Below, piece by piece: positions 17,732 through 26,502 of a stretch of DNA of 64,000 nucleotides (within the stretch, counting starts at the first letter, position 1; each line of letters begins with the position of its first letter). The DNA is taken from the NCBI RefSeq assembly GCF_004765605.1, contig NZ_SRLC01000001.1:2232001-2296000 (forward strand), in the 5' to 3' direction. The notes beneath the pieces are model-generated. The model ran no database searches. It worked only from the letters and a program-made list of their open reading frames with translations, and was not told the DNA's origin. Both the position numbers and the translations under genes were made by a program. Origin of the DNA: Hymenobacter aquaticus (lineage in GTDB: Bacteria; Bacteroidota; Bacteroidia; Cytophagales; Hymenobacteraceae).

Positions 17732-18757
17732 ATGCGTTACGGATATTGGATGCCCGTTTTTGGCGGGTGGCTGCGCAACGTCGAAGACGAGAACATGCGC
17801 GCCGACTGGGACTACGTCAAAACGCTGGCCCAGCGCAGTGAGGAGCTGGGCTACGACCTCTCGCTCATTGCCGAGCTGAACCTGAACGACATCAAGGGCG
17901 AGGAAGCTCCCAGCCTGGATGCCTGGAGCACAGCCGCCGCCCTGGCCGCCGTGACCAAGAAAATCGAGCTGATGGTGGCCGTGCGGCCCACGTTTCACTC
18001 CCCGGCCCTGCTGGCCAAGCAGGCCGCCAACATCGACCACATCAGCGGCGGCCGGTTGTCCTTGAACGTGGTGTCGTCGTGGTGGCAGGACGAGGCCAAG
18101 AAGTACGGGGTGCACTTCGAGCAGCACGACGACCGCTACGCCCGCACCGCCGAGTGGCTGCACGTGGTGGATAATATGTGGAAGCAGGACCACTTCACCT
18201 TCGAGGGCAAGTTCTACCAGGTCACCGACTCGATTCTGCAGCCCAAGCCCGTGTCGCGCCCCCGGCCGTTTCTCTATGCCGGCGGCGAGTCGGAGGCGGC
18301 CAAAAACCTCATTGCCGCCCAGTGCGACGGCTACGTGATGCACGGCGACGACCCGGCGGCCATCGGCCGCCGCATTCAGGATCTGAGCCAGCGCCGCGAC
18401 AAGCTGGGCTTGCCGCCCATGAAGTTTGGGGTGGCGGCTTACTCGGTGGTGCGCAACACTGAAGCCGAGGTAAAAAAGGAGCTGGCGCGCATTACCAACG
18501 TGCAGGGCTCGGCGGCGGGCTACAAAAACTACCAGCAGTGGCTGGCCGGCACCCAGCTCGAAAACCAGGTTTCGTTGCAGGACTACTCGGTATCGAACCG
18601 CGGCCTGCGCTCGGGCCTCACCGGCACGCCCGACCAGGTAGCCGAGCAAGTGGCCGCCTTCGAGGCCGTGGGCGTAGATTTGTTCCTGCTCCAGTGCAGC
18701 CCCCAGCTGGAGGAAATGGAGCGGTTCTCGGAAGCCGTTATTCAGGTGCTGGCCTAG
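17732..18757 (+). CDS. LLM-class FMN-dependent monooxygenase (SsuD/SfnG-like)
   Basis: 341 residues with the luciferase-like TIM-barrel pattern: MRYGYWMPVFGGWLRN at the start, IELMVAVRPTFHSPALLAKQ, the HISGGRLSLNVVSSWWQDEA stretch that in SsuD and SfnG binds FMN phosphate and substrate, then RPFLYAGGESEAAKNLIAAQ. Closest recognisable relatives are alkanesulfonate and dimethylsulfone monooxygenases, which release sulfite from organosulfur compounds with FMNH2 and O2. The upstream SAM riboswitch supports a sulfur-scavenging role. A flavin reductase partner is not in the window. Confidence 0.88.
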   Translation: MRYGYWMPVFGGWLRNVEDENMRADWDYVKTLAQRSEELGYDLSLIAELNLNDIKGEEAPSLDAWSTAAALAAVTKKIELMVAVRPTFHSPALLAKQAANIDHISGGRLSLNVVSSWWQDEAKKYGVHFEQHDDRYARTAEWLHVVDNMWKQDHFTFEGKFYQVTDSILQPKPVSRPRPFLYAGGESEAAKNLIAAQCDGYVMHGDDPAAIGRRIQDLSQRRDKLGLPPMKFGVAAYSVVRNTEAEVKKELARITNVQGSAAGYKNYQQWLAGTQLENQVSLQDYSVSNRGLRSGLTGTPDQVAEQVAAFEAVGVDLFLLQCSPQLEEMERFSEAVIQVLA

Positions 18758-18793
18758 GCTGGGTTTCCGGAGCGGTTTACAGCACGGTCACCC

Positions 18794-18962
18794 CAGAACG
18801 TCATGTCGAGCAGCGCGAGACATCTCGCGTGCAATGGTAATTTGATTACTGTTGCGGGAGAGATGCTTCGGCTGTGCTCGGCATGACGTTCTGTTTTGTG
18901 TAGTTCTGGCCCCAACAACGACCGCACGCGAGATGTCTCGCGCTGCTCGACATGACGTTCTG
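18794..18962. repeat. Nested-palindrome element, family A copy 1
   Basis: Two 39-bp arms, 18794-18832 and 18924-18962, are exact reverse complements (left arm begins CAGAACGTCATGTCGAGC and ends CATCTCGCGTGC). Between them lies a lone third arm-like segment around 18856-18893 (AGAGATGCTTCGG...GGCATGACGTTCTG), seemingly the leftover half of an inner palindrome. No ORF. It lies between the monooxygenase gene and bshB1. Confidence 0.9.
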
Positions 18963-18976
18963 ATTTACCCCCTTCT

Positions 18977-19696
18977 ATGAAGCTCGATATTCTGATGATT
19001 GCGGCCCACCCCGACGACGCGGAAGTCGGCTGCGCGGGCACCTTGATGAAGCACATTGCCAAGGGCCGCCGCGTGGGCGTGGTCGACCTCACGCGCGGGG
19101 AGCTGGGCACGCGGGGCTCGGCCGAGCTGCGCGGCCAGGAAGCCGCCGACGCGGCCCGCATCCTGGGGCTGCACGTGCGCGAAAACCTGGGCATGCGCGA
19201 CGGGTTCTTTCTCAACGACGAAGCCCATCAGCTGCGGGTAATCGAGGTGATTCGCCGCTTCCGGCCGTCTATTATTCTGACCAACCCCAACGTGGACCGC
19301 CACCCCGACCACGGCCGGGCCGCCAACCTGGTGCACGACGCGGCGTTTCTGGCGGGCTTGCCCAAAATCGAAACCCGGTACCAGGGCCAGGCGCAGCCCG
19401 CCTGGCGGCCCGACCTGATGCTGCAAGTCATCCACAACACCTACGTCAAGCCCGACATCGTGGTGGATATCAGCGAGTACTGGGAGCGGAAGCTGGCGGC
19501 CGTAACGGCGTTCAAAAGCCAGTTTTACCACCCCGACTACGAAGACCCGACCTCGACCTACATTTCCTCGCCCGACTTTCTGAAGATTCTCGAAGGCCAG
19601 GCCCGCGACTGTGGCAAGTACATCAACGTGCCCTTTGCCGAGGGCTTTACCTGCCGCCGCCTGCTGGGCGTCGACGACTTATTTCAGCTGCGGTAG
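18977..19696 (+). CDS. bshB1: Bacillithiol biosynthesis deacetylase BshB1
   Basis: 239 residues of the PIG-L/LmbE deacetylase family. AAHPDDAEVGCAGT at residues 9-22 carries the zinc-binding HPDD. VVDLTRGELGTRGSAELR is the BshB1 signature (TxGExGTRG), and NPNVDRHPDHGRAANLV carries the second zinc histidine. The C-terminal YHPDYEDPTSTYISSPDF is typical of BshB1 rather than other LmbE proteins. It removes the acetyl group from GlcNAc-malate in the second step of bacillithiol synthesis. bshA and bshC are not in this window. The gene starts 15 bases after a family A palindromic element. Confidence 0.93.
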   Translation: MKLDILMIAAHPDDAEVGCAGTLMKHIAKGRRVGVVDLTRGELGTRGSAELRGQEAADAARILGLHVRENLGMRDGFFLNDEAHQLRVIEVIRRFRPSIILTNPNVDRHPDHGRAANLVHDAAFLAGLPKIETRYQGQAQPAWRPDLMLQVIHNTYVKPDIVVDISEYWERKLAAVTAFKSQFYHPDYEDPTSTYISSPDFLKILEGQARDCGKYINVPFAEGFTCRRLLGVDDLFQLR

Positions 19697-19727
19697 TTGG
19701 GCATGTGGGCGGGCCTGCGTATGTTTG
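19697..19727 (+). promoter_or_regulatory. Bacteroidetes promoter of the speD operon
   Basis: TTG at 19697-19699, a 20-base spacer and TATGTTTG at 19720-19727 fit the -33 TTG / -7 TAnnTTTG promoter. Transcription would start near 19733, about 35 bases before the speD ATG. The -33 element begins on the base after the bshB1 stop codon. Confidence 0.65.
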
Positions 19728-19767
19728 AAACTGTCGCGCTACCACTTTTAGGCCTGATAGTTACTGA

Positions 19768-20121
19768 ATGCAGCTGTATACTCCCGGGCTTCACATCCTG
19801 GCCACGTTCCGCGCGCCGGCCGCCCGCCTGACCGATGCCACCGCCTGCCGGGCCTTTTTCGATGAGCAAATCAGCCGGCTGGGGCTGGTGAAGGTGGGTC
19901 AGGTGTACCACTCGTTTCCCAACCAGAGCTTCACGGCGGTGGTGGGCCTGACCGAGTCGCACCTGAGCATTCACACCTGGCCCGAGTTCGGGCAGGCCAC
20001 CTTCGACGTGTTTTTGTCGAACTATCAGCGCGACAACTCGGCCACGGTGCGCCGGCTCTACGCCGAAACCCTGCGCTTTTTCGAGGCCACGGAGCTGTCC
20101 AAAACCGAGGTAGCCCGATGA
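19768..20121 (+). CDS. SpeD-like pyruvoyl decarboxylase (AdoMet decarboxylase homolog)
   Basis: 117 residues, the size of the short prokaryotic SpeD class. TESHLSIHTWPEFG at residues 62-75 contains the Glu63-Ser64 self-cleavage site that yields the pyruvoyl group, plus the processing His69. In characterised AdoMet decarboxylases a catalytic Cys follows in DVFTCG; here the same place reads DVFLSN, so Cys is replaced by Ser84. AdoMet decarboxylation is therefore likely but not certain; some SpeD homologs are reported to have become ornithine or arginine decarboxylases. It is the first gene of the operon, overlaps the next gene by four bases (ATGA) and sits with a spermidine-synthase-like gene, which would use decarboxylated AdoMet. 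Confidence 0.82.
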   Translation: MQLYTPGLHILATFRAPAARLTDATACRAFFDEQISRLGLVKVGQVYHSFPNQSFTAVVGLTESHLSIHTWPEFGQATFDVFLSNYQRDNSATVRRLYAETLRFFEATELSKTEVAR

Positions 20122-21446
20122 GCGAGCTGGCAACGACCCTGGAAGCCCACCTCAGCTGCCCTTCCTGCGCCAAGCTGCTGACCTACTACGACGCGGTAAA
20201 CAGCACCCATTTCGCCTGCCCGCAGTGCCACACCTTGTTTGCCCAAACCGCGAAGGGCGCCACCGAGAAAGTCCGGCAGTTTCAGGATGTGCCGCGCCTG
20301 GCGCCCTGCCTGCCGCTGGGCAGCATCGGCACCCTGCCCGACGGCCTGCTCTACCGCGTGACGGGCTACATGCTGCGCAAGGAAAAAAGCACGCCGGCCC
20401 GCTGGCAGGAGTTTATGCTCTTCAACCCCACGGCCGGCTACGCCCAGCTTTCCCTCTACGAAGGCCACTGGATGTTTATCCGGCCGACCCAGGAAGAATA
20501 CAAGGGCCTGTCGGGCCGCTCGGGCAACCACCGCGTGGTGTTGGACGGCGACACCACGTTTTCTATCTACAACAAGTACCAGCCCCAGATTCTGTACGCC
20601 ACCGGCGAGTTCGACTGGAACATCCTGGACGACGAGCGGCTCACCATCACCGAGTTTGTGGCCCCGCCCCGGATGCTGATTGAGGAAAAAGCCAAGGGCC
20701 GGGCCGTGGAGTGGTACCGGGCCGAGCACATCGAGCCCGGCGCGGTGGCCCGGGCGTTTGCCGTGCCCATGTCGCGCATCCCGTTCCGCACGGGCGTGGG
20801 CGCGGTGCAGCCGGCCCCCGGCGGCGACTCCTGGCCGGCCCTCAAGCAGTTCACCATTTTGCTGCTGCTGCTGGTGCTGGTCACGGAAATGGTGTTTGGT
20901 ATGATCCGGCCCCACCGGCAGCTGCTGCGCGAGAGTTTCGCCAGCGGCCCCACCCAGTCGCTGGTTTTGCCCGCGCCGGCCGCGGCGGCGGCCACTGCCA
21001 CGACCGAGAAGGTGCTGGTGTCGATGCCGTTTGAGGTGCCCGACAGCACTACCAGTCTGCAAGTCGAGGTGCGGGCCGACCTCGACAACAGCTGGCTGGA
21101 GCTGCCGGTGAGCCTGGTGAACGAGCAAACCGGCCGGGGCTTCGAGTTTACCAAGAACATCGAGTACTACCACGGCTACGAAAGCGGGGAAAGCTGGTCG
21201 GAAGGCAGCGTGGAGGCCGACGCCCTGCTGACCCGCATTCCCGCCGGCCGCTACCACCTGAACCTGTACCCGGCCTCGGAAAACAACCGCCCCGTGAGCT
21301 TTACCGTCACGGTGACGGAAAATCCCTGGCTGCCGTCCAACCTGCTGCTGCTCGTGCTGGGCCTGCTGCTCTACCCCGGCATTCTGATCTATCGGCGCCA
21401 ACAGCACGAGCAGAGCCGCTGGGAGCAAAGTGACTATACACCCTAA
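20118..21446 (+). CDS. Zinc-ribbon plus DUF4178 membrane protein
   Basis: 442 residues. The N-terminus has two CxxC pairs, CPSC (14-17) and CPQC (34-37), forming a likely zinc ribbon. Residues about 55-200 match the DUF4178 pattern (GSIGTLPDGLLYRVTGYM, a WQEFMLFNP segment and a GEFDWNILDDE segment). A first membrane helix lies around 238-260 (FTILLLLLVLVTEMVFGMI). A beta-rich probably extracytoplasmic part of about 140 residues follows, then a second helix around 404-428 ending in a basic tail. It starts inside the speD stop (ATGA). The DUF4178 function is unknown; recurrence with SpeD, DUF350 and spermidine synthase suggests a membrane scaffold or sensor. Confidence 0.83.
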   Translation: MSELATTLEAHLSCPSCAKLLTYYDAVNSTHFACPQCHTLFAQTAKGATEKVRQFQDVPRLAPCLPLGSIGTLPDGLLYRVTGYMLRKEKSTPARWQEFMLFNPTAGYAQLSLYEGHWMFIRPTQEEYKGLSGRSGNHRVVLDGDTTFSIYNKYQPQILYATGEFDWNILDDERLTITEFVAPPRMLIEEKAKGRAVEWYRAEHIEPGAVARAFAVPMSRIPFRTGVGAVQPAPGGDSWPALKQFTILLLLLVLVTEMVFGMIRPHRQLLRESFASGPTQSLVLPAPAAAAATATTEKVLVSMPFEVPDSTTSLQVEVRADLDNSWLELPVSLVNEQTGRGFEFTKNIEYYHGYESGESWSEGSVEADALLTRIPAGRYHLNLYPASENNRPVSFTVTVTENPWLPSNLLLLVLGLLLYPGILIYRRQQHEQSRWEQSDYTP

Positions 21447-21465
21447 TTCCCCACTCCCACGCGCT

Positions 21466-21657
21466 ATGGAATTGCCCGACCTATCTAAGATAAAAGTGTA
21501 CGCCGCGCTGGCCCTGCTGGCCTACGGCAGCTACGTGTGGGCCTCGCTGCACGGCATCCGCCTCCTGGGCGACGACAACGAAACCACCGAAAACATCAAC
21601 GGCACCGGCAGCCACTCCAGCGGCCACGCCGGCCGCTCCAGCTTCTACCACAAATAG
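21466..21657 (+). CDS. Small single-span membrane protein
   Basis: 63 residues from ATG 21466 (MELPDLSKIKVYAALALLAY); a GTG at 21430 would overlap the DUF4178 gene by 17 bases and is less likely. One hydrophobic segment (VYAALALLAYGSYVWASL) is followed by a polar tail with GDDNETTENINGTGSHSSGH and a His-containing end. No family recognised. Its place inside the operon and same strand argue for a real gene. Confidence 0.6.
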   Translation: MELPDLSKIKVYAALALLAYGSYVWASLHGIRLLGDDNETTENINGTGSHSSGHAGRSSFYHK

Positions 21658-21665
21658 GTGAGATG

Positions 21666-21743
21666 GTGAATGAGTGAATGAGCTGTTCTGCTCCTATCCG
21701 CTCAACCCTACTACTTCACTCATTCACTCATTCACTCATTCAC
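21666..21743. repeat. Octamer repeat forming an inverted repeat
   Basis: TCATTCAC-type octamers are repeated at about 21715-21743 (phase CTCATTCACTCATTCAC). The reverse complement GTGAATGAGTGAATGAG occurs once at 21666-21682, so a 17-bp hairpin can form in two registers just before the DUF350 start. Confidence 0.8.
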
Positions 21744-21754
21744 TACCTCACCGC

Positions 21755-21970
21755 ATGGAATACCTCAACTTCAAGCTCATTACCGCCTCCGTCGTTTACT
21801 CGGTTATCGGTATTCTGATTCTGGTCGTCAGCTTCGTTATCATCGACAAGCTCACGCCCAAGACGCTCTGGAAGGAAATCGTGGACGAGCACAACACGGC
21901 CCTGGCCATCGTGGCGGCCGCCTTTATGCTGTCGGTGGCCCTGATTATCAGCGCGGCAATTCATGGCTAA
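21755..21970 (+). CDS. DUF350 membrane protein
   Basis: 71 residues from ATG 21755 (MEYLNFKLITASVVYSVIGI). Two hydrophobic helices flank a short cytosolic or periplasmic turn with KLTPKTLWKEIVDEHNTALA, the DUF350 signature; most DUF350 proteins contain two such units, so this is a half-length form that probably oligomerises. It overlaps the spermidine-synthase-like gene by 8 bases. Function unknown; DUF350 genes recur next to spermidine-synthase-like and DUF4178 genes. Confidence 0.8.
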   Translation: MEYLNFKLITASVVYSVIGILILVVSFVIIDKLTPKTLWKEIVDEHNTALAIVAAAFMLSVALIISAAIHG

Positions 21971-23525
21971 CGGCCCCGTGCTGAGTCCGCCCGCCTTGGG
22001 CCGCCGGGCCCCGGCCGCCGACCACCTGCCGGCCCTGCTGCTGGGCTCGGTGTTCGTCATTGCCACCTGCGGCCTGATCTACGAGCTGATTGCCGGCACG
22101 CTGGCCAGCTACCTGCTCGGCGACTCGGTCACGCAGTTTTCCACCATCATCGGGGCCTACCTGTTTTCGATGGGCATCGGCTCGTGGCTGTCGCGCTACC
22201 TCGACGGGGCCCTGCTGAAGTGGTTTATCCGCCTCGAAATCCTGGTGGGGCTGGTGGGGGGCTTTTCCGCGCCGCTGCTGTTCGTGCTCTTCGAATACGT
22301 GGCCTCCTTCCGCCTGATTCTCTACTCGCTGGTCGGCCTCACCGGCATTCTGGTCGGGCTGGAAATTCCGCTGCTGATGCGGATTCTGGAGAACCGCTAC
22401 GAGTTCAAGGACCTGGTTTCGCGCGTGTTCACCTTCGACTACATCGGGGCCCTGCTGGCGTCGCTCATCTTCCCGCTGGTGCTGGTGCCCCAGCTCGGCC
22501 TGATTCGCACGTCCCTGTTTTTTGGGGCCCTGAACGTGGTGGTGGCCGCCGTGGCCCTGTACCGCTTCCCCGAAACCCGCCCCTACCGCCGCAGCTTCAC
22601 GGGCCTCATGGCCGGGGCGCTGCTGCTGCTGGCCCTGGGCTTTGGCTACGCCGAGCGCATCATGACCTACACCGAAACCCTGGCGTTTCAGGACCAGGTT
22701 ATCTACAGCAAAAGCACGGTCTACCAGCGCATTGTGCTCACGCGCAACAACCGGGAGCTGCGCCTGTTCCTCAACGGCAACCTGCAATTCAGCTCGGCCG
22801 ACGAGTACCGCTACCACGAAGCCCTGGTGCACCCGGCCATGCAGGCCCTGCCCCGGGCCCGGCGGGTGCTGGTGCTGGGCGGCGGCGACGGGCTGGCCGT
22901 GCGCGAGCTGCTGAAGTACCCCCAGCTCCAGCATATCCGCCTCGTCGACCTCGACGCGGGCATGACGGAGCTTTTTCAGCACAACCCGCTGCTGCTGGCC
23001 CTCAACCAGGGCGCCCTGAACAACCCGAAAGTGCAGGTCGTCAACGGCGACGCCTACCAGTGGGTGCGCCACGACACCACCCGCTACGACCTGCTGGTCA
23101 TCGACTTTCCTGACCCGTCCAACTACTCCATCGGCAAGCTGTACAGCACCTCCTTCTACGCCGAGCTGCACAAGCTGCTGGCCCCCGGCGGGCTGATGGT
23201 GGTGCAAAGCACCTCGCCCTACGTGGCCCGGCAGTCGTTTTGGTGCATCAGCCACACCCTGCAGGCGGCCGGCTTCCACACCATTCCCTACCACACCTAC
23301 GTGCCGTCGTTCGGCGAGTGGGGCTACGTGCTGGCCGGCCGCAACGGCCACTGGCGCGGCGACGGGAAGCTGCCCGCCGGCCTGCGCTACCTCACGCCCG
23401 GCACCCTGAAAGAAATGCTGCACTTCCCCCCCGACATGGCCGAAGTGCCCACCGACGTCAACCAGCTCAACAACCAGGTGCTCGTGCGCTACTTCGAAGA
23501 CGACTGGGCCCCTTACACCCACTAG
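21963..23525 (+). CDS. Polyamine aminopropyltransferase fused to membrane domain (SpeE-like)
   Basis: 520 residues. The N-terminal part (about 20-235) has roughly seven membrane helices (LLGSVFVIATCGLIYELIAG first). The C-terminal half is a spermidine-synthase fold: VLVLGGGDGLAVRELLKY near residue 301-318 (SAM-type nucleotide loop GGGDG), DLDAGMTELF, then NGDAYQW and VIDFPDPSNYSIGKLYS near 378-395 (DxxDP-like motif for decarboxylated AdoMet and amine). The membrane fusion is known in many bacterial SpeE homologs. It would transfer an aminopropyl group to an amine at the membrane. Acceptor unknown. Coupled to DUF350 by overlap. Confidence 0.87.
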   Translation: MANGPVLSPPALGRRAPAADHLPALLLGSVFVIATCGLIYELIAGTLASYLLGDSVTQFSTIIGAYLFSMGIGSWLSRYLDGALLKWFIRLEILVGLVGGFSAPLLFVLFEYVASFRLILYSLVGLTGILVGLEIPLLMRILENRYEFKDLVSRVFTFDYIGALLASLIFPLVLVPQLGLIRTSLFFGALNVVVAAVALYRFPETRPYRRSFTGLMAGALLLLALGFGYAERIMTYTETLAFQDQVIYSKSTVYQRIVLTRNNRELRLFLNGNLQFSSADEYRYHEALVHPAMQALPRARRVLVLGGGDGLAVRELLKYPQLQHIRLVDLDAGMTELFQHNPLLLALNQGALNNPKVQVVNGDAYQWVRHDTTRYDLLVIDFPDPSNYSIGKLYSTSFYAELHKLLAPGGLMVVQSTSPYVARQSFWCISHTLQAAGFHTIPYHTYVPSFGEWGYVLAGRNGHWRGDGKLPAGLRYLTPGTLKEMLHFPPDMAEVPTDVNQLNNQVLVRYFEDDWAPYTH

Positions 23526-23555
23526 CGGCCGTAGCACCGGCCGCCCGGCTCGCCC

Positions 23556-23723
23556 GAAGCGCCGGCAAGGATGATTGAAGCACTAAAAAGAACGGCCGAA
23601 GCACCGGCAAGAACATCCGAAGCGCTGGCAAGGCAGCCTGAAGCTTTGGAAAGAATGACCGAAGCCCCGGCAAGGACGGTCGAAGGCTTGAAAAGAACGA
23701 CCGAAGCAATAAAAAGAGCTATT
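23556..23723 (+). repeat. Eight-unit 21-bp minisatellite
   Basis: Eight degenerate units, each beginning GAAGC or GAAGG and 21 bases long (for example GAAGCACCGGCAAGAACATCC), run head to tail. The period is seven codons, so every frame stays open through the array. Unit identity varies mainly at positions 6-10 and 15-21. Confidence 0.85.
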
Positions 23724-23735
23724 TCCACTTCTTAG
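23571..23735 (+). CDS. Candidate 54-residue heptad-repeat peptide
   Basis: Within the 21-bp repeat the plus-strand frame starts at ATG 23571 and ends at TAG 23733-23735. It encodes repeats of the form E-A-[L/P]-x-R-x-x, that is EALKRTA, EAPARTS, EALARQP, EALERMT, EAPARTV, EGLKRTT and EAIKRAI. The regular E/K/R and leucine spacing could give an amphipathic helix, though three units have proline. It is on the operon strand, 45 bases after the speE-like stop and 53 bases before the oxidase start. It may equally be a non-coding minisatellite; no family is known to me. Confidence 0.35.
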   Translation: MIEALKRTAEAPARTSEALARQPEALERMTEAPARTVEGLKRTTEAIKRAISTS

Positions 23736-23788
23736 GTCGTCCTTTCTAACGCGGGCCGCCCTCTTTCCGCCTTTTCTTTCCCTCTCTT

Positions 23789-25447
23789 ATGCCCTCTCCC
23801 AATGCTTCCCAGTGCCCCTTCCTGCCCGGCCGCCGCGAGTTTCTCGGCCGCACGGGGCTGGGTCTGGCCGGGCTGCTGCTGAGCCCCGCGCTGCTGCACT
23901 CCTGCGCGCCCGGCTCGGAGCGGGCCCACATCCGGGGCACGCTGCGCGGGGCCAACCACGCCACGGGCCACCGGCTGCGGCAGCCAAACCAGCTGCCCGC
24001 GCCCAGCCGCACGCTGCGCACCGACGTGGTTATCATCGGCGGCGGGGTGGCGGGCCTCTCGGCCAAGCGCTGGCTGCACCGCCACGGCCAGCCGGAAGTG
24101 CTGCTGCTGGAGCTCGACGCGCAGGTGGGCGGCAACTCGGCCGCGGGCCACAATGCCACCTCGGCCTATCCCTGGGGGGCGCACTACCTGCCCCTGCCCG
24201 ACCCGCGCAACCATGAGCTGCTGGCGTTTCTGCGCGAGGCGGGCACCATCACCGGCTTTGCCCCCGGCGGCCTGCCCATCTACAACGAGTACCACCTCTG
24301 CCACGACCCCGAGGAGCGCCTGCACGTGCAGGGCCACTGGCAAACCGGCCTGGTGCCCGAGCTGGGCGTGCCCGCCCCCGACCGCGCCCAAACCGCCCGT
24401 TTCTTCGCCCTGATTGAGGAACTGCGCCGGGCCAAAGGCCAGGACGGGCGCGACGCCTTCGCCATTCCGCTGGATCAGTCGTCGGCCGATGCGCGGTTCC
24501 GGCAGCTCGACACCGTTTCCTTTGCCGACTACCTCACCCGCCAGGGCTTCACGGCCCCGGCCCTGCGCTGGTACCTCGACTACTGCTGCAAAGACGACTA
24601 CGGCACCACGGCGGCTTACACCTCGGCCTGGGCCGGCCTGCACTACTTCGCCTCCCGCAAGGGCCAGGCCCACAATGCTACCAGCGCCGACGTGCTGACC
24701 TGGCCCCAGGGCAACGGCTTTCTGGTGGAGGCGCTCCGCCAACAGGCCCCCGCCGGCATCGTCCCCCAGACGCTGGCCTACGCCGTGGAGGAAACCGCCA
24801 CCGGCGTGCAAGTGCTGGCCTACGACGCGGCCCGGCACGAAACCATCCGGGTGGAGGCCCGGCAGGCCTTGCTGGCGACGCCCCAGTTCGTCACCCAGCG
24901 CCTGCTCCGGGGCTTTGCGGGCGCGCCCCCACCCCGGCCGCCGCTGCACCGCGCCCCCTGGGTGGTGGCCAACCTGACCGTGGACGGCCTGCCCCAGGGC
25001 CCCGGCGCGCCCCTGAGCTGGGACAACGTGCTCTACGGCAGCGCCTCGGTGGGCTACGTGAATGCCAACCAGCAGGACCTGGCCCTGGGCACCCAGCAGA
25101 AAGTCATTACCTACTACTGGCCCCTGACCGACGAAGCCCCCGACGCGGCCCGCCGCCGGGCCTACGCCACCACCTACGACCAGTGGCTGCAACCCATTCT
25201 GGCCGACCTGGAAAAAGCCCACACCGGCATTACGGCCCGCGTGCGGCAGGCCGATATCTGGGTGTGGGGCCACGGCATGGTAGCCCCCACGCCCGGCGCG
25301 CTGTGGCACGCGGGGCGGCAAGAAGCGGCCCGGCCCCTGCGCGGCAAGCTGTTCTTTGCCCACACCGACCTGAGCGGCATGTCGATTTTTGAGGAAGGCT
25401 TTTACCAGGGCATCCGGGCGGCCCGCGAAATGCTGGGCAGCGCATGA
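23789..25447 (+). CDS. Exported FAD-dependent amine-oxidase-like flavoprotein
   Basis: 552 residues. The N-terminus has a twin-arginine signal GRREFLGRTGLGLAGLLLSP followed by LLHSC (Cys39), so it looks like a Tat-exported lipoprotein. The FAD-binding Rossmann motif VVIIGGGVAGLSAKRWL is near residues 78-94 with ELDAQVGGNSAA after it, the layout of flavin amine oxidases. The C-terminal HTDLSGMSIFEEGFYQGIRAA matches the closing FAD-binding segment. It would oxidise an amine outside the cytoplasm. In this operon the amine is plausibly a polyamine or polyamine-like product of the SpeD and SpeE-like enzymes; that is inference. It overlaps the next gene by four bases (ATGA). Confidence 0.82.
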   Translation: MPSPNASQCPFLPGRREFLGRTGLGLAGLLLSPALLHSCAPGSERAHIRGTLRGANHATGHRLRQPNQLPAPSRTLRTDVVIIGGGVAGLSAKRWLHRHGQPEVLLLELDAQVGGNSAAGHNATSAYPWGAHYLPLPDPRNHELLAFLREAGTITGFAPGGLPIYNEYHLCHDPEERLHVQGHWQTGLVPELGVPAPDRAQTARFFALIEELRRAKGQDGRDAFAIPLDQSSADARFRQLDTVSFADYLTRQGFTAPALRWYLDYCCKDDYGTTAAYTSAWAGLHYFASRKGQAHNATSADVLTWPQGNGFLVEALRQQAPAGIVPQTLAYAVEETATGVQVLAYDAARHETIRVEARQALLATPQFVTQRLLRGFAGAPPPRPPLHRAPWVVANLTVDGLPQGPGAPLSWDNVLYGSASVGYVNANQQDLALGTQQKVITYYWPLTDEAPDAARRRAYATTYDQWLQPILADLEKAHTGITARVRQADIWVWGHGMVAPTPGALWHAGRQEAARPLRGKLFFAHTDLSGMSIFEEGFYQGIRAAREMLGSA

Positions 25448-26502
25448 GCCAGCCTACGCCCCAACCCTGGATTCGCTCGGCCTGGTTTGATGGCCTGTGG
25501 CTGCTGGCGCCGCCGTTTCTGGCGCTGCTGGTCGTGCTGGCCCTGCCCGCCGAGTTTCGGGCCTCCACCCACATGCCGCTACTGGGCTGGGTGGTGCTGG
25601 TGGTTTTTATCGATGTAGCTCACGTATACAGCACGCTGTTCCGCACCTACTTCGATGCCCCGCGCCGCCGACAGCACCGGCAGCTGCTGTGGGTTGCGCC
25701 GCTGGGCTGCTACGCGGTGGGCGTGGCCCTGCACCAAGTGGGCGGCCTCGTGTTCTGGCGGGTGCTGGCTTATCTGGCGGTGTTCCACTTTATCCGGCAG
25801 CAATACGGCTTTCTGCGCCTCTACGCCCGGCACGAGCCCGCCTCGGCCCCCAGCCGCCGCCTCGATACCGCCCTAGTGTATTACGCTACCCTCTACCCGC
25901 TGCTGTACTGGCACTTTTCCCCCGGCCGCAACTTCACCTGGTTCGTGGAAGGCGACTTCCTGCAACTCGACTGGCCCGCCGGGCGCTACGCGGCCACGGT
26001 GCTGTACGTGGCCTTGCTGGGACTCTACGGGGCCAAAGAGCTGCGCCAGTGGCTGTTTTACCGCACCTTCAACCTGCCCCGCAACCTGCTGCTGCTGGGC
26101 ACGCTGCTGTCCTGGTACTTCGGCATCGTGTACTTCAACGGCGACCTGGCCTTTACCCTGCTCAACGTCGTGTCGCACGGCATTCCCTACCTGGCCCTGG
26201 TCTGGATTAGTCGGGAGCCGGCCGGGCCGCCCGTGGCCGGGCAGCGGCCCGGCTGGTGGCAGAATTATGCCGTGCTGGGCTTCCTGGGGTTTCTGCTGGC
26301 GCTGGCCTATCTGGAAGAAGGTATTTGGGATGGGCTGGTATGGCGGGAGCACGCCTCGGTGTTTGGCTGGTTTCAACAGCTGCCCGCCGTACAAAACCCG
26401 GCGCTGCTGGCCTGGCTGGTGCCGCTGCTGGCCTTGCCGCAGGCTACGCACTACGTGCTGGATGGCTTTATCTGGCGCCGCCCGAAAAAGGCCCGGGCCT
26501 GA
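25444..26502 (+). CDS. Polytopic membrane protein, unknown function, histidine-rich
   Basis: 352 residues with about eight or nine hydrophobic helices and short loops. I do not recognise the family. Histidines sit next to aromatic or acidic residues in or beside helices at several places: DVAHVYSTL, FHFIRQQYGF, LYWHFSPG, NVVSHGIPY and QATHYVLDGFIW. This could suit metal or heme binding. The gene starts inside the oxidase stop (ATGA), so it belongs to the operon and probably works with the exported oxidase or the membrane SpeE-like enzyme. The operon ends here; no clear terminator follows. Confidence 0.75.
   Translation: MSQPTPQPWIRSAWFDGLWLLAPPFLALLVVLALPAEFRASTHMPLLGWVVLVVFIDVAHVYSTLFRTYFDAPRRRQHRQLLWVAPLGCYAVGVALHQVGGLVFWRVLAYLAVFHFIRQQYGFLRLYARHEPASAPSRRLDTALVYYATLYPLLYWHFSPGRNFTWFVEGDFLQLDWPAGRYAATVLYVALLGLYGAKELRQWLFYRTFNLPRNLLLLGTLLSWYFGIVYFNGDLAFTLLNVVSHGIPYLALVWISREPAGPPVAGQRPGWWQNYAVLGFLGFLLALAYLEEGIWDGLVWREHASVFGWFQQLPAVQNPALLAWLVPLLALPQATHYVLDGFIWRRPKKARA

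Follow-up and report, generated by a model that had tools for sequence, protein, structure and literature searches.

Which amine does a membrane-bound aminopropyltransferase modify when its operon also encodes an amine oxidase that is predicted to be exported? The question is raised by a stretch of 64,000 nucleotides from Hymenobacter aquaticus (contig NZ_SRLC01000001.1 of assembly GCF_004765605.1, positions 2,232,001 to 2,296,000; hereafter the window), part of a genome of 5.5 Mb in four contigs. Open reading frames (ORFs) and family profile searches define in it an operon of seven genes, all on the + strand and spanning 19768-26502. They encode, in this order, a protein of the S-adenosylmethionine (AdoMet) decarboxylase family (SpeD-like), a DUF4178 protein, a small one-helix membrane protein, a DUF350 protein, a membrane-fused aminopropyltransferase (SpeE), a flavin amine oxidase and a polytopic membrane protein (memb). 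The linkage of SpeE, DUF350 and DUF4178 is already known, and a 2019 study reportedly left open the acceptor of membrane SpeE fusions.

An original prediction for this DNA, made from its letters alone, had given the identities, order, strand and coordinates of these genes, all of which the ORF list and family profiles bear out. What it missed is that the small protein has a conserved C-terminal lysine, which provides a concrete acceptor candidate encoded in the same operon. We propose, with a probability of about 0.5, that the operon specifies a module for protein modification in the envelope, in which this lysine is the acceptor of SpeE.

The small protein ends in an invariant His-Lys

Relatives of the operon were collected from named genomes with memb as bait, the best 80 of 454 being kept (set S1; loci are cited by number). 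The small protein occupies the slot between DUF4178 and DUF350/speE and is 44-111 residues long by mechanical start codons. Its sequence is variable except for the C-terminus, which is His-Lys (HK) in 76 of 76 cases, i.e. the window and 75 S1 relatives; five loci without a DUF4178-to-speE frame (L059, L071, L101, L115 and L134) were left out of this count, and a stricter first pass had given HK in 69/76. Counted from the C-terminus, position -3 is mostly Tyr, Phe or His and position -4 mostly Phe, Tyr or Met; beyond these the tail is variable and rich in Gly, Ser, His and Arg. Among 6433 mechanical ORFs of 45-110 residues in the S1 loci, an HK end is found in only 81, of which 73 lie in the slot ahead of speE. 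The small protein is retained in 12 loci that lack DUF350 by its own profile. HK is still the end of the protein in DUF4178 fusions (L038, L102, L266, L268, L270, L274, L282 and L284), which indicates that the extreme C-terminal position is conserved rather than its carrier. Lysine and arginine together (K+R) are more numerous before the helix than after it in 60 of the 76 small proteins, fewer in 4 and tied in 12; this bias suggests a probable extracytoplasmic position of the tail, which, being Gly/Ser-rich, is probably flexible.

A bait-free test was carried out on a further set (S4) of 75 loci from the phyla of three further genomes, in which SpeE was found at 1e-90 in 11/337, 28/398 and 38/392 genomes. 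ORFs were chosen for a transmembrane segment, a length of at most 110 residues and an operonic position, the last residue being ignored; 57 such ORFs came from 44 loci, and 40 of the 57 end in Lys, as compared with 435 of the 6433 mechanical ORFs, a background that includes the HK ORFs.

The final count, made by reading, covers 172 membrane-SpeE loci (76 + 8 + 8 + 75 + 5); the other loci read were L047-L054, same-phylum SpeE relatives without the oxidase, and 5 of the 11 plasmids with a match. Reading was preferred since an automatic rule requiring a strong helix, which found HK in 66/81 S1 sequences, missed the window. A tail protein ending in Lys lies within about 6 kb in 158 of the 172 loci, and about 10 kb off in one more (L267). 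The form of the tail follows the oxidase. It is HK in 106 of the 108 loci with an oxidase (L267 among the 106; other Lys ends in 2), a count that includes L265 and L284, with the oxidase within 20 kb, and L263, with the oxidase on another contig of its metagenome-assembled genome (MAG), L134. The 64 oxidase-free loci show other Lys ends in 50, Gly-Gly in 2, HK in 1 and no tail found in 11, their tails being mostly Gly-Lys, Val-Lys or Ile-Lys (FGK, GGK, SGK, RVK, RIK and similar). Only L048 and L049 in our sets match a YgiC-like ligase; both combine SpeE and the ligase with an envelope protein ending in Gly-Gly. Separately, the DUF350 protein is itself Lys-ended in four oxidase-lacking loci (L257, L258, L304 and L306), by chance or as another tail carrier.

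We read the lysine as a candidate acceptor because the form of the tail tracks the enzymes present: HK with the oxidase, another Lys end without it, and Gly-Gly with a ligase. We considered the possibility that the HK or GK tail acts, unmodified, as a recognition element, docking to SpeE or the oxidase or binding metal and thereby exerting a regulatory role. Invariant extreme C-termini can serve as docking signals, the His beside the Lys could bind metal, and a flexible tail would suit such a role. Yet the invariant residue bears exactly the amine used by SpeE and amine oxidases, and recognition alone does not explain the Gly-Gly ends of the ligase-bearing relatives, so that we consider this explanation unlikely.

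The operon is a conserved unit that includes the oxidase

We searched 247 genomes of the window's phylum for relatives of the oxidase (E <=1e-10; found in 16) and of SpeE (E <=1e-40; found in 17). The nine best oxidases and the nine best SpeEs (51-100% identity) come from the same nine genomes, window included. The remaining eight SpeEs are 36-44% identical and without an oxidase at E 1e-10, and no SpeE match lies in the 1.5-kb flanks of the seven weak oxidases or in the 16 kb around four of them. The order speD - DUF4178 - DUF350 - speE - oxidase is kept in all eight non-window loci, the gene at the DUF4178 position of L038 being only weakly similar. The operon is thus a real, conserved unit; a chance neighbourhood is ruled out by the order being kept across many genera.

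These results bear on the suggestion that both the oxidase and the last membrane gene are fixed members. The original prediction had chosen beforehand the co-occurrence of the oxidase and the membrane gene with the rest as a point on which it could fail, and the oxidase accompanies the SpeE core in 9/9 strong homologues of the phylum. This part of the suggestion therefore holds, but the part on the last gene does not: it follows the oxidase in 6/8 non-window loci of the phylum, scores above 100 bits in two of the 18 S4 loci with an oxidase (a fragment in L291 lies near a contig end) and occurs in none of three oxidase-bearing plasmid loci. The last gene is thus not a fixed member, and is rarer where it was not used as bait. 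S1, for which it was the bait, is uninformative on the frequency of operons without it. By their own profiles, the 80 S1 loci contain the oxidase in 79, speE in 76, DUF4178 in 75, speD in 68 and DUF350 in 63; the sole locus without oxidase, L059, starts at a contig end.

The genera in S1 include Hymenobacter, Spirosoma, Mucilaginibacter, Pedobacter, Chitinophaga, Dyadobacter and Pontibacter, and the set also includes MAGs labelled Verrucomicrobia, Oligoflexia, Leptospiraceae and Cyanobacteria. Among such MAG loci, speD is 3'-terminal in L117 and L118, some have no speD that we could find, and a second DUF4178 gene stands ahead in some. A Band_7/SHOCT gene heads the operon at L118:3508-4509 and L129:3359-4444, and an SPFH gene is present in a Novosphingobium locus. 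The unit DUF4178 - small HK protein - DUF350 is tandemly duplicated within the operon at L084:2919-11026; at L089:2543-6669, a helix-turn-helix-like gene and a 1263-residue gene resembling restriction-modification genes by eye stand between the HK gene and speE.

The gene content also bears on the idea that SpeE modifies an amine-bearing membrane lipid, which DUF350 would move and the oxidase trim outside. SpeE and DUF350 are indeed membrane proteins, and the oxidase is predicted to be exported and is probably lipid-anchored. However, the 80 S1 loci revealed no additional gene that most of them keep at a constant position (the largest extra cluster, scattered and unannotated, comprises 19 loci), and the conservation of the tail would be unexplained. 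Lipid aminopropylation therefore appears very improbable.

SpeE, SpeD and the amine supply

SpeE aligns to solved aminopropyltransferases (best E 1.1e-42), and eight checked catalytic residues (Q275, E281, D309, D331, D363, D381, D384 and Y443) are invariant in 29/29 aligned sequences. This, together with an oxidase fold that is nearest to putrescine oxidase, further argues for the lysine as a candidate acceptor. The same two facts would also agree with a free-amine pathway, in which SpeE aminopropylates a small amine, the oxidase oxidises the product outside and the small protein is a mere membrane subunit. Three matches to PF02784 (Orn/Arg decarboxylase family) in the window's genome mean, moreover, that an amine acceptor may exist. 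Yet such a pathway leaves unexplained why an invariant C-terminal Lys changes form with the oxidase and why a Gly-Gly tail goes with the ligase. Furthermore, SpeE (PF01564) is absent from 6 of 13 genomes searched in the genus, which argues against a housekeeping function, and fusions of this type are said, in the 2019 study, to fail to complement a spermidine synthase mutant. We judge a free-amine pathway to be an improbable explanation; the evidence suggests that the modified target is the end of the small protein, not a free polyamine.

PF01564, PF02675 and PF03994 (DUF350) each match once in the window's genome, the PF01564 match being the membrane SpeE. Housekeeping spermidine synthesis was considered and rejected: PF01564 and PF02675 are patchy within the genus (both missing from 5/13 genomes), and the family search gave no carboxyspermidine decarboxylase over the cut-off. 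We found no paper on homospermidine in Hymenobacter in the open-access literature.

The original prediction placed the synthesis of a free amine at the inner face of the membrane. This is unsupported as written: the seven hydrophobic segments of SpeE and the K+R content of its loops suggest that the catalytic domain is outside the cytoplasm. Mean K+R is 1.6 for the N-terminus, 2.0 for loop 2, 4.1 for loop 4 and 3.5 for loop 6, and zero for loops 1, 3 and 5. This is a hydropathy argument, in which the second segment is weak and the borders were set by hand.

The SpeD-like protein matches the family profile of class 1b AdoMet decarboxylases (PF02675) and misses the equivalog TIGR03330 (63.9 bits for a cut-off of 75.65). 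Ser63 and His68 (Thermotoga maritima numbering) are kept in 77/77 aligned operon SpeDs, window included, as is Pro71. A possible turn of this SpeD into an ornithine or arginine decarboxylase, of the kind described in PMC10407285, was considered in the light of the kept Pro71.

The predicted exported oxidase and the last membrane protein

R15 and C39 of the oxidase are invariant in nine aligned sequences. An RR.[FLVI]-like twin-arginine translocation (Tat) motif is present in 34 of 36 aligned oxidases, and 16 of the 36 fit a strict lipobox pattern; the window protein, with LLHSC, does not, yet its Cys follows a hydrophobic run, and the protein is probably exported by the Tat system and lipid-anchored. 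PF01593 is found in 34/36 at E 0.01, the window protein itself not being listed. The structural model (predicted local distance difference test, pLDDT, 88.7) has putrescine oxidase as its nearest fold (Z 27.9, root-mean-square deviation 3.5 over 423 residues), a match tied within 1 Z with monoamine oxidase (MAO), renalase and phytoene desaturase. Profile and fold assign the protein to the flavin amine oxidases of the MAO or polyamine oxidase type, with a predicted oxidation of amines. Distant relatives of this Tat-type oxidase stand in other contexts at L043-L046; at L044 and L045 the relative adjoins two more genes starting with twin-arginine motifs.

Four histidines of memb, H60, H115, H245 and H336, and its E291/E292 are invariant in alignments of 30 and of 7 rows. 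A metal site would be a guess from this pattern. Searches of Pfam (at its cut-offs), NCBIfam and the PDB sequences gave no match for the protein, and neither did Foldseek at E 0.001 for its model (pLDDT 86). Its best Z scores, up to 6.8 to UbiA and rhodopsins, are within the chance range for helical bundles and exclude no fold family. Distant relatives of 390-436 residues (L165-L170) stand outside this operon and have a D-x-P-H motif, where the printed sequence reaches that far, versus DVAH in the operon protein.

Layout of the locus

The features of the locus are listed in Table 1. The genes had been described as joined by ATGA or 8-nt overlaps, which applies to three junctions: speD/DUF4178 (ATGA), DUF350/speE (8 nt) and oxidase/last gene (ATGA). 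The three others are gaps of 19 nt between the DUF4178 gene and the small gene (if the latter starts at ATG 21466), 97 nt between the small gene and DUF350, and 263 nt between speE and the oxidase, a junction that is mostly tight in relatives (<=30 nt in 55/76 pairs). The two longest gaps consist largely of tandem repeat, TTCACTCA x3.8 at 21715-21744 in the first and degenerate units in the second; ORF 23571-23735, which lies inside this latter repeat and has no family match, is probably not a gene. As to the zinc ribbon described in the DUF4178 protein, the N-terminus carries a zinc-ribbon-like motif, with profile matches that are weak and below threshold.

The good promoter announced at 19697-19727 is plausible. 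The pattern GTTG-N15-25-TAnnTTTG, which we take to be a Bacteroidota promoter consensus, has six matches in the window against 0.75 expected, one of them at 19696-19727, the pattern having been written after that site was seen. A sigma-70 scan gave two sites in the window against 0.8 expected and none at this position. Further upstream, the peptide ERHVEQRETSRV occurs in ORFs of both strands, 18538-18840 (+) and 18754-19215 (-), as inverted copies of a short repeat would give.

Table 1 Features of the operon and of its upstream border in the window
Feature	Position	Strand	Evidence and remarks
bshB1	18977-19696		directly upstream of the operon; TIGR04001 269.7 bits
Promoter-like site GTTG-N-TATGTTTG	19696-19727	+	at the end of bshB1; pattern match, putative
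SpeD-like protein, AdoMet decarboxylase family	19768-20121	+	PF02675 70.6 bits (cut-off 25)
DUF4178 protein	20118-21446	+	PF13785 47.3 bits (cut-off 25); N-terminal zinc-ribbon-like motif, hydrophobic segments
Small one-helix membrane protein	21466-21657	+	likely ATG start (ORF opens at GTG 21430); ends ...SSFYHK
C-terminal His-Lys codons CAC AAA, then TAG	21649-21654	+	sequence; conserved in relatives
DUF350 two-helix membrane protein	21755-21970	+	PF03994 53.5 bits (cut-off 26)
Membrane-fused aminopropyltransferase SpeE	21963-23525	+	NF002956 681.5 bits (cut-off 472); 7 hydrophobic segments plus SpdSyn domain
Degenerate tandem repeat, 21/42/63-nt units	23554-23717	+	speE-oxidase gap
Flavin adenine dinucleotide (FAD) amine oxidase, predicted exported	23789-25447	+	Tat motif RREFLG; Cys39 after hydrophobic run
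Polytopic membrane protein memb	25444-26502	+	H60, H115, H245 and H336, each in a different helix; E291/E292

Discussion

In the module that we propose, decarboxylated AdoMet would come from SpeD. The membrane-bound SpeE, in association with DUF350 and DUF4178, would use it to aminopropylate the small protein at the side-chain amine of its C-terminal lysine. The side chain of lysine, -(CH2)4-NH2, would mimic putrescine, the usual acceptor of SpeE, and the product would be a spermidine skeleton attached to a protein. The oxidase, which is probably lipid-anchored after export, would then act on the tail and either bring it to maturity as an aldehyde or cross-link or remove the modification, and the histidine-rich polytopic protein, where present, may help this step. 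A role in membrane stress or surface charge would be conceivable.

Several observations weigh against this proposal. The tail might be a signal for docking or for sorting and not a substrate. Two oxidase-bearing loci break the rule that HK goes with the oxidase (L324, GGK; L173, HGK), and L274 has an HK tail with no oxidase found, on a contig that begins about 0.8 kb before speE. Twelve of the 75 S4 loci were tail-less at first look: seven are without DUF350 and DUF4178, four are cut by a contig end (L257, L260, L275 and L326) and in L267 the tail gene is distant. The seven (L295-L299, L233 and L314, from the phylum of L126) contain SpeE, but neither DUF350 nor DUF4178 nor a tail protein was found in them, which indicates that such a partner is not obligatory for SpeE. 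The tails were for the most part curated by eye, chance ORFs ending in HK or K exist (short HK-ending ones are found in L048 and L051), and the loci cannot be taken as independent, since L035 and L120 share a contig, so that at least one locus was counted twice. The YgiC-like profile had L049 itself as one of its three seeds. As regards the enzymes, the 40 residues past the last SpeE segment carry 5.8 K+R versus 3.4 Asp plus Glu, opposite to an outside topology; with the domain outside, decarboxylated AdoMet would have to cross the membrane. Its supply is itself uncertain in the window, since Cys83 of SpeD, essential for processing and catalysis in T. maritima according to a passage of PMC10407285, is replaced by Ser in 68/77 aligned operon SpeDs, window included. 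It is kept in nine (L036-L039, L041 and L042 of the window's phylum, and the MAG loci L117, L118 and L134), and a Cys is visible at this place in many of the SpeD sequences read. Finally, no speD was found alongside in eight S1 operons in which DUF4178, SpeE, oxidase and memb are present (L088, L093, L112, L123, L126, L129, L130 and L133).

A side observation concerns the seven SpeE loci without partners: the gene ahead of SpeE ends in GRF in four of the five printed, and in three SpeE is followed by a photolyase-like gene.

A wider and, as a whole, rather doubtful extension is an envelope tail chemistry common to the family, in which the last residue of a flexible Gly/Ser-rich tail would state the modification. 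A C-terminal Lys would be aminopropylated by a membrane SpeE (HK with the oxidase, GK, VK or IK without it), and a YgiC-type ligase would couple a polyamine to a C-terminal Gly-Gly as an amide, the substrates being dedicated membrane proteins or lipoproteins. In the window, the reaction would be extracytoplasmic, with export of decarboxylated AdoMet, and the oxidase would make a reactive aldehyde, a cross-link or a protein-derived cofactor.

Comparison with known systems

What appears to be new is the HK-tailed protein, how it goes with the oxidase and the constant position of the latter, as no mention of these was found in the open-access literature. Li is said to have described in 2019 clusters of AdoMet decarboxylase, a fusion of MFS and SpdSyn domains, and DUF350, with an acceptor other than putrescine; no protein substrate, oxidase or tail was reportedly proposed. 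In hypusine, on eIF5A, a spermidine-like chain is built on the lysine side chain of one dedicated protein and then oxidised; this differs from the proposed module in its enzymes and donor, in that the lysine is internal and in that it is cytosolic. If true, our proposal would add the aminopropylation of a protein's C-terminal lysine to the known modifications.

Among the closest published systems is the operon of group 2 of PMC11237479, described in its main text as PspA-linked and consisting of a seven-transmembrane SpeE, DUF350, DUF4178 and an envelope lipoprotein (Ctha_1186 domain), with a proposed role of such operons in membrane stress; neither 'lysine' nor 'C-terminus' occurs in that main text. 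Compared with group 2 as described there, the window adds SpeD, the Tat oxidase and the histidine-rich membrane protein, replaces the lipoprotein by a tiny protein with an HK tail and is without a PspA match. The PspA profile has no match >25 bits in window positions 9001-37000 or in the 80 S1 loci; it is found in 8 of 57 oxidase-lacking loci and 0 of 18 with the oxidase.

E. coli K-12 offers a second comparison. YgiB ends in SMGG and YjfM in HWGG, and they adjoin YgiC and YjfC, annotated as peptide--spermidine ligases in the sequence record and called recently characterised peptidylpolyamine synthetases in a passage of PMC12568646. The systems YgiB-YgiC and YjfL-YjfM-YjfC share with the window the logic of a DUF350 protein (YjfL) and an envelope protein beside a polyamine enzyme, the envelope protein (DUF1190) having a Gly/Ser/Arg-rich tail that ends in GG next to a polyamine-peptide ligase. 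No match >50 bits to a YgiC-like ligase is present in window positions 9001-37000 or in the 80 S1 loci. Whereas the E. coli systems have an ATP-grasp ligase and a C-terminal Gly, the window has an enzyme of the decarboxylated AdoMet type and a C-terminal Lys. By analogy only, the Gly-Gly tails beside peptide-polyamine ligases suggest that the Lys version, too, is most naturally read as covalent chemistry at the tail. If this reading is true, the YjfL/YjfM/YjfC system of E. coli and the PspA-linked systems would share one logic, which would account for the presence of polyamine genes within membrane-stress operons.

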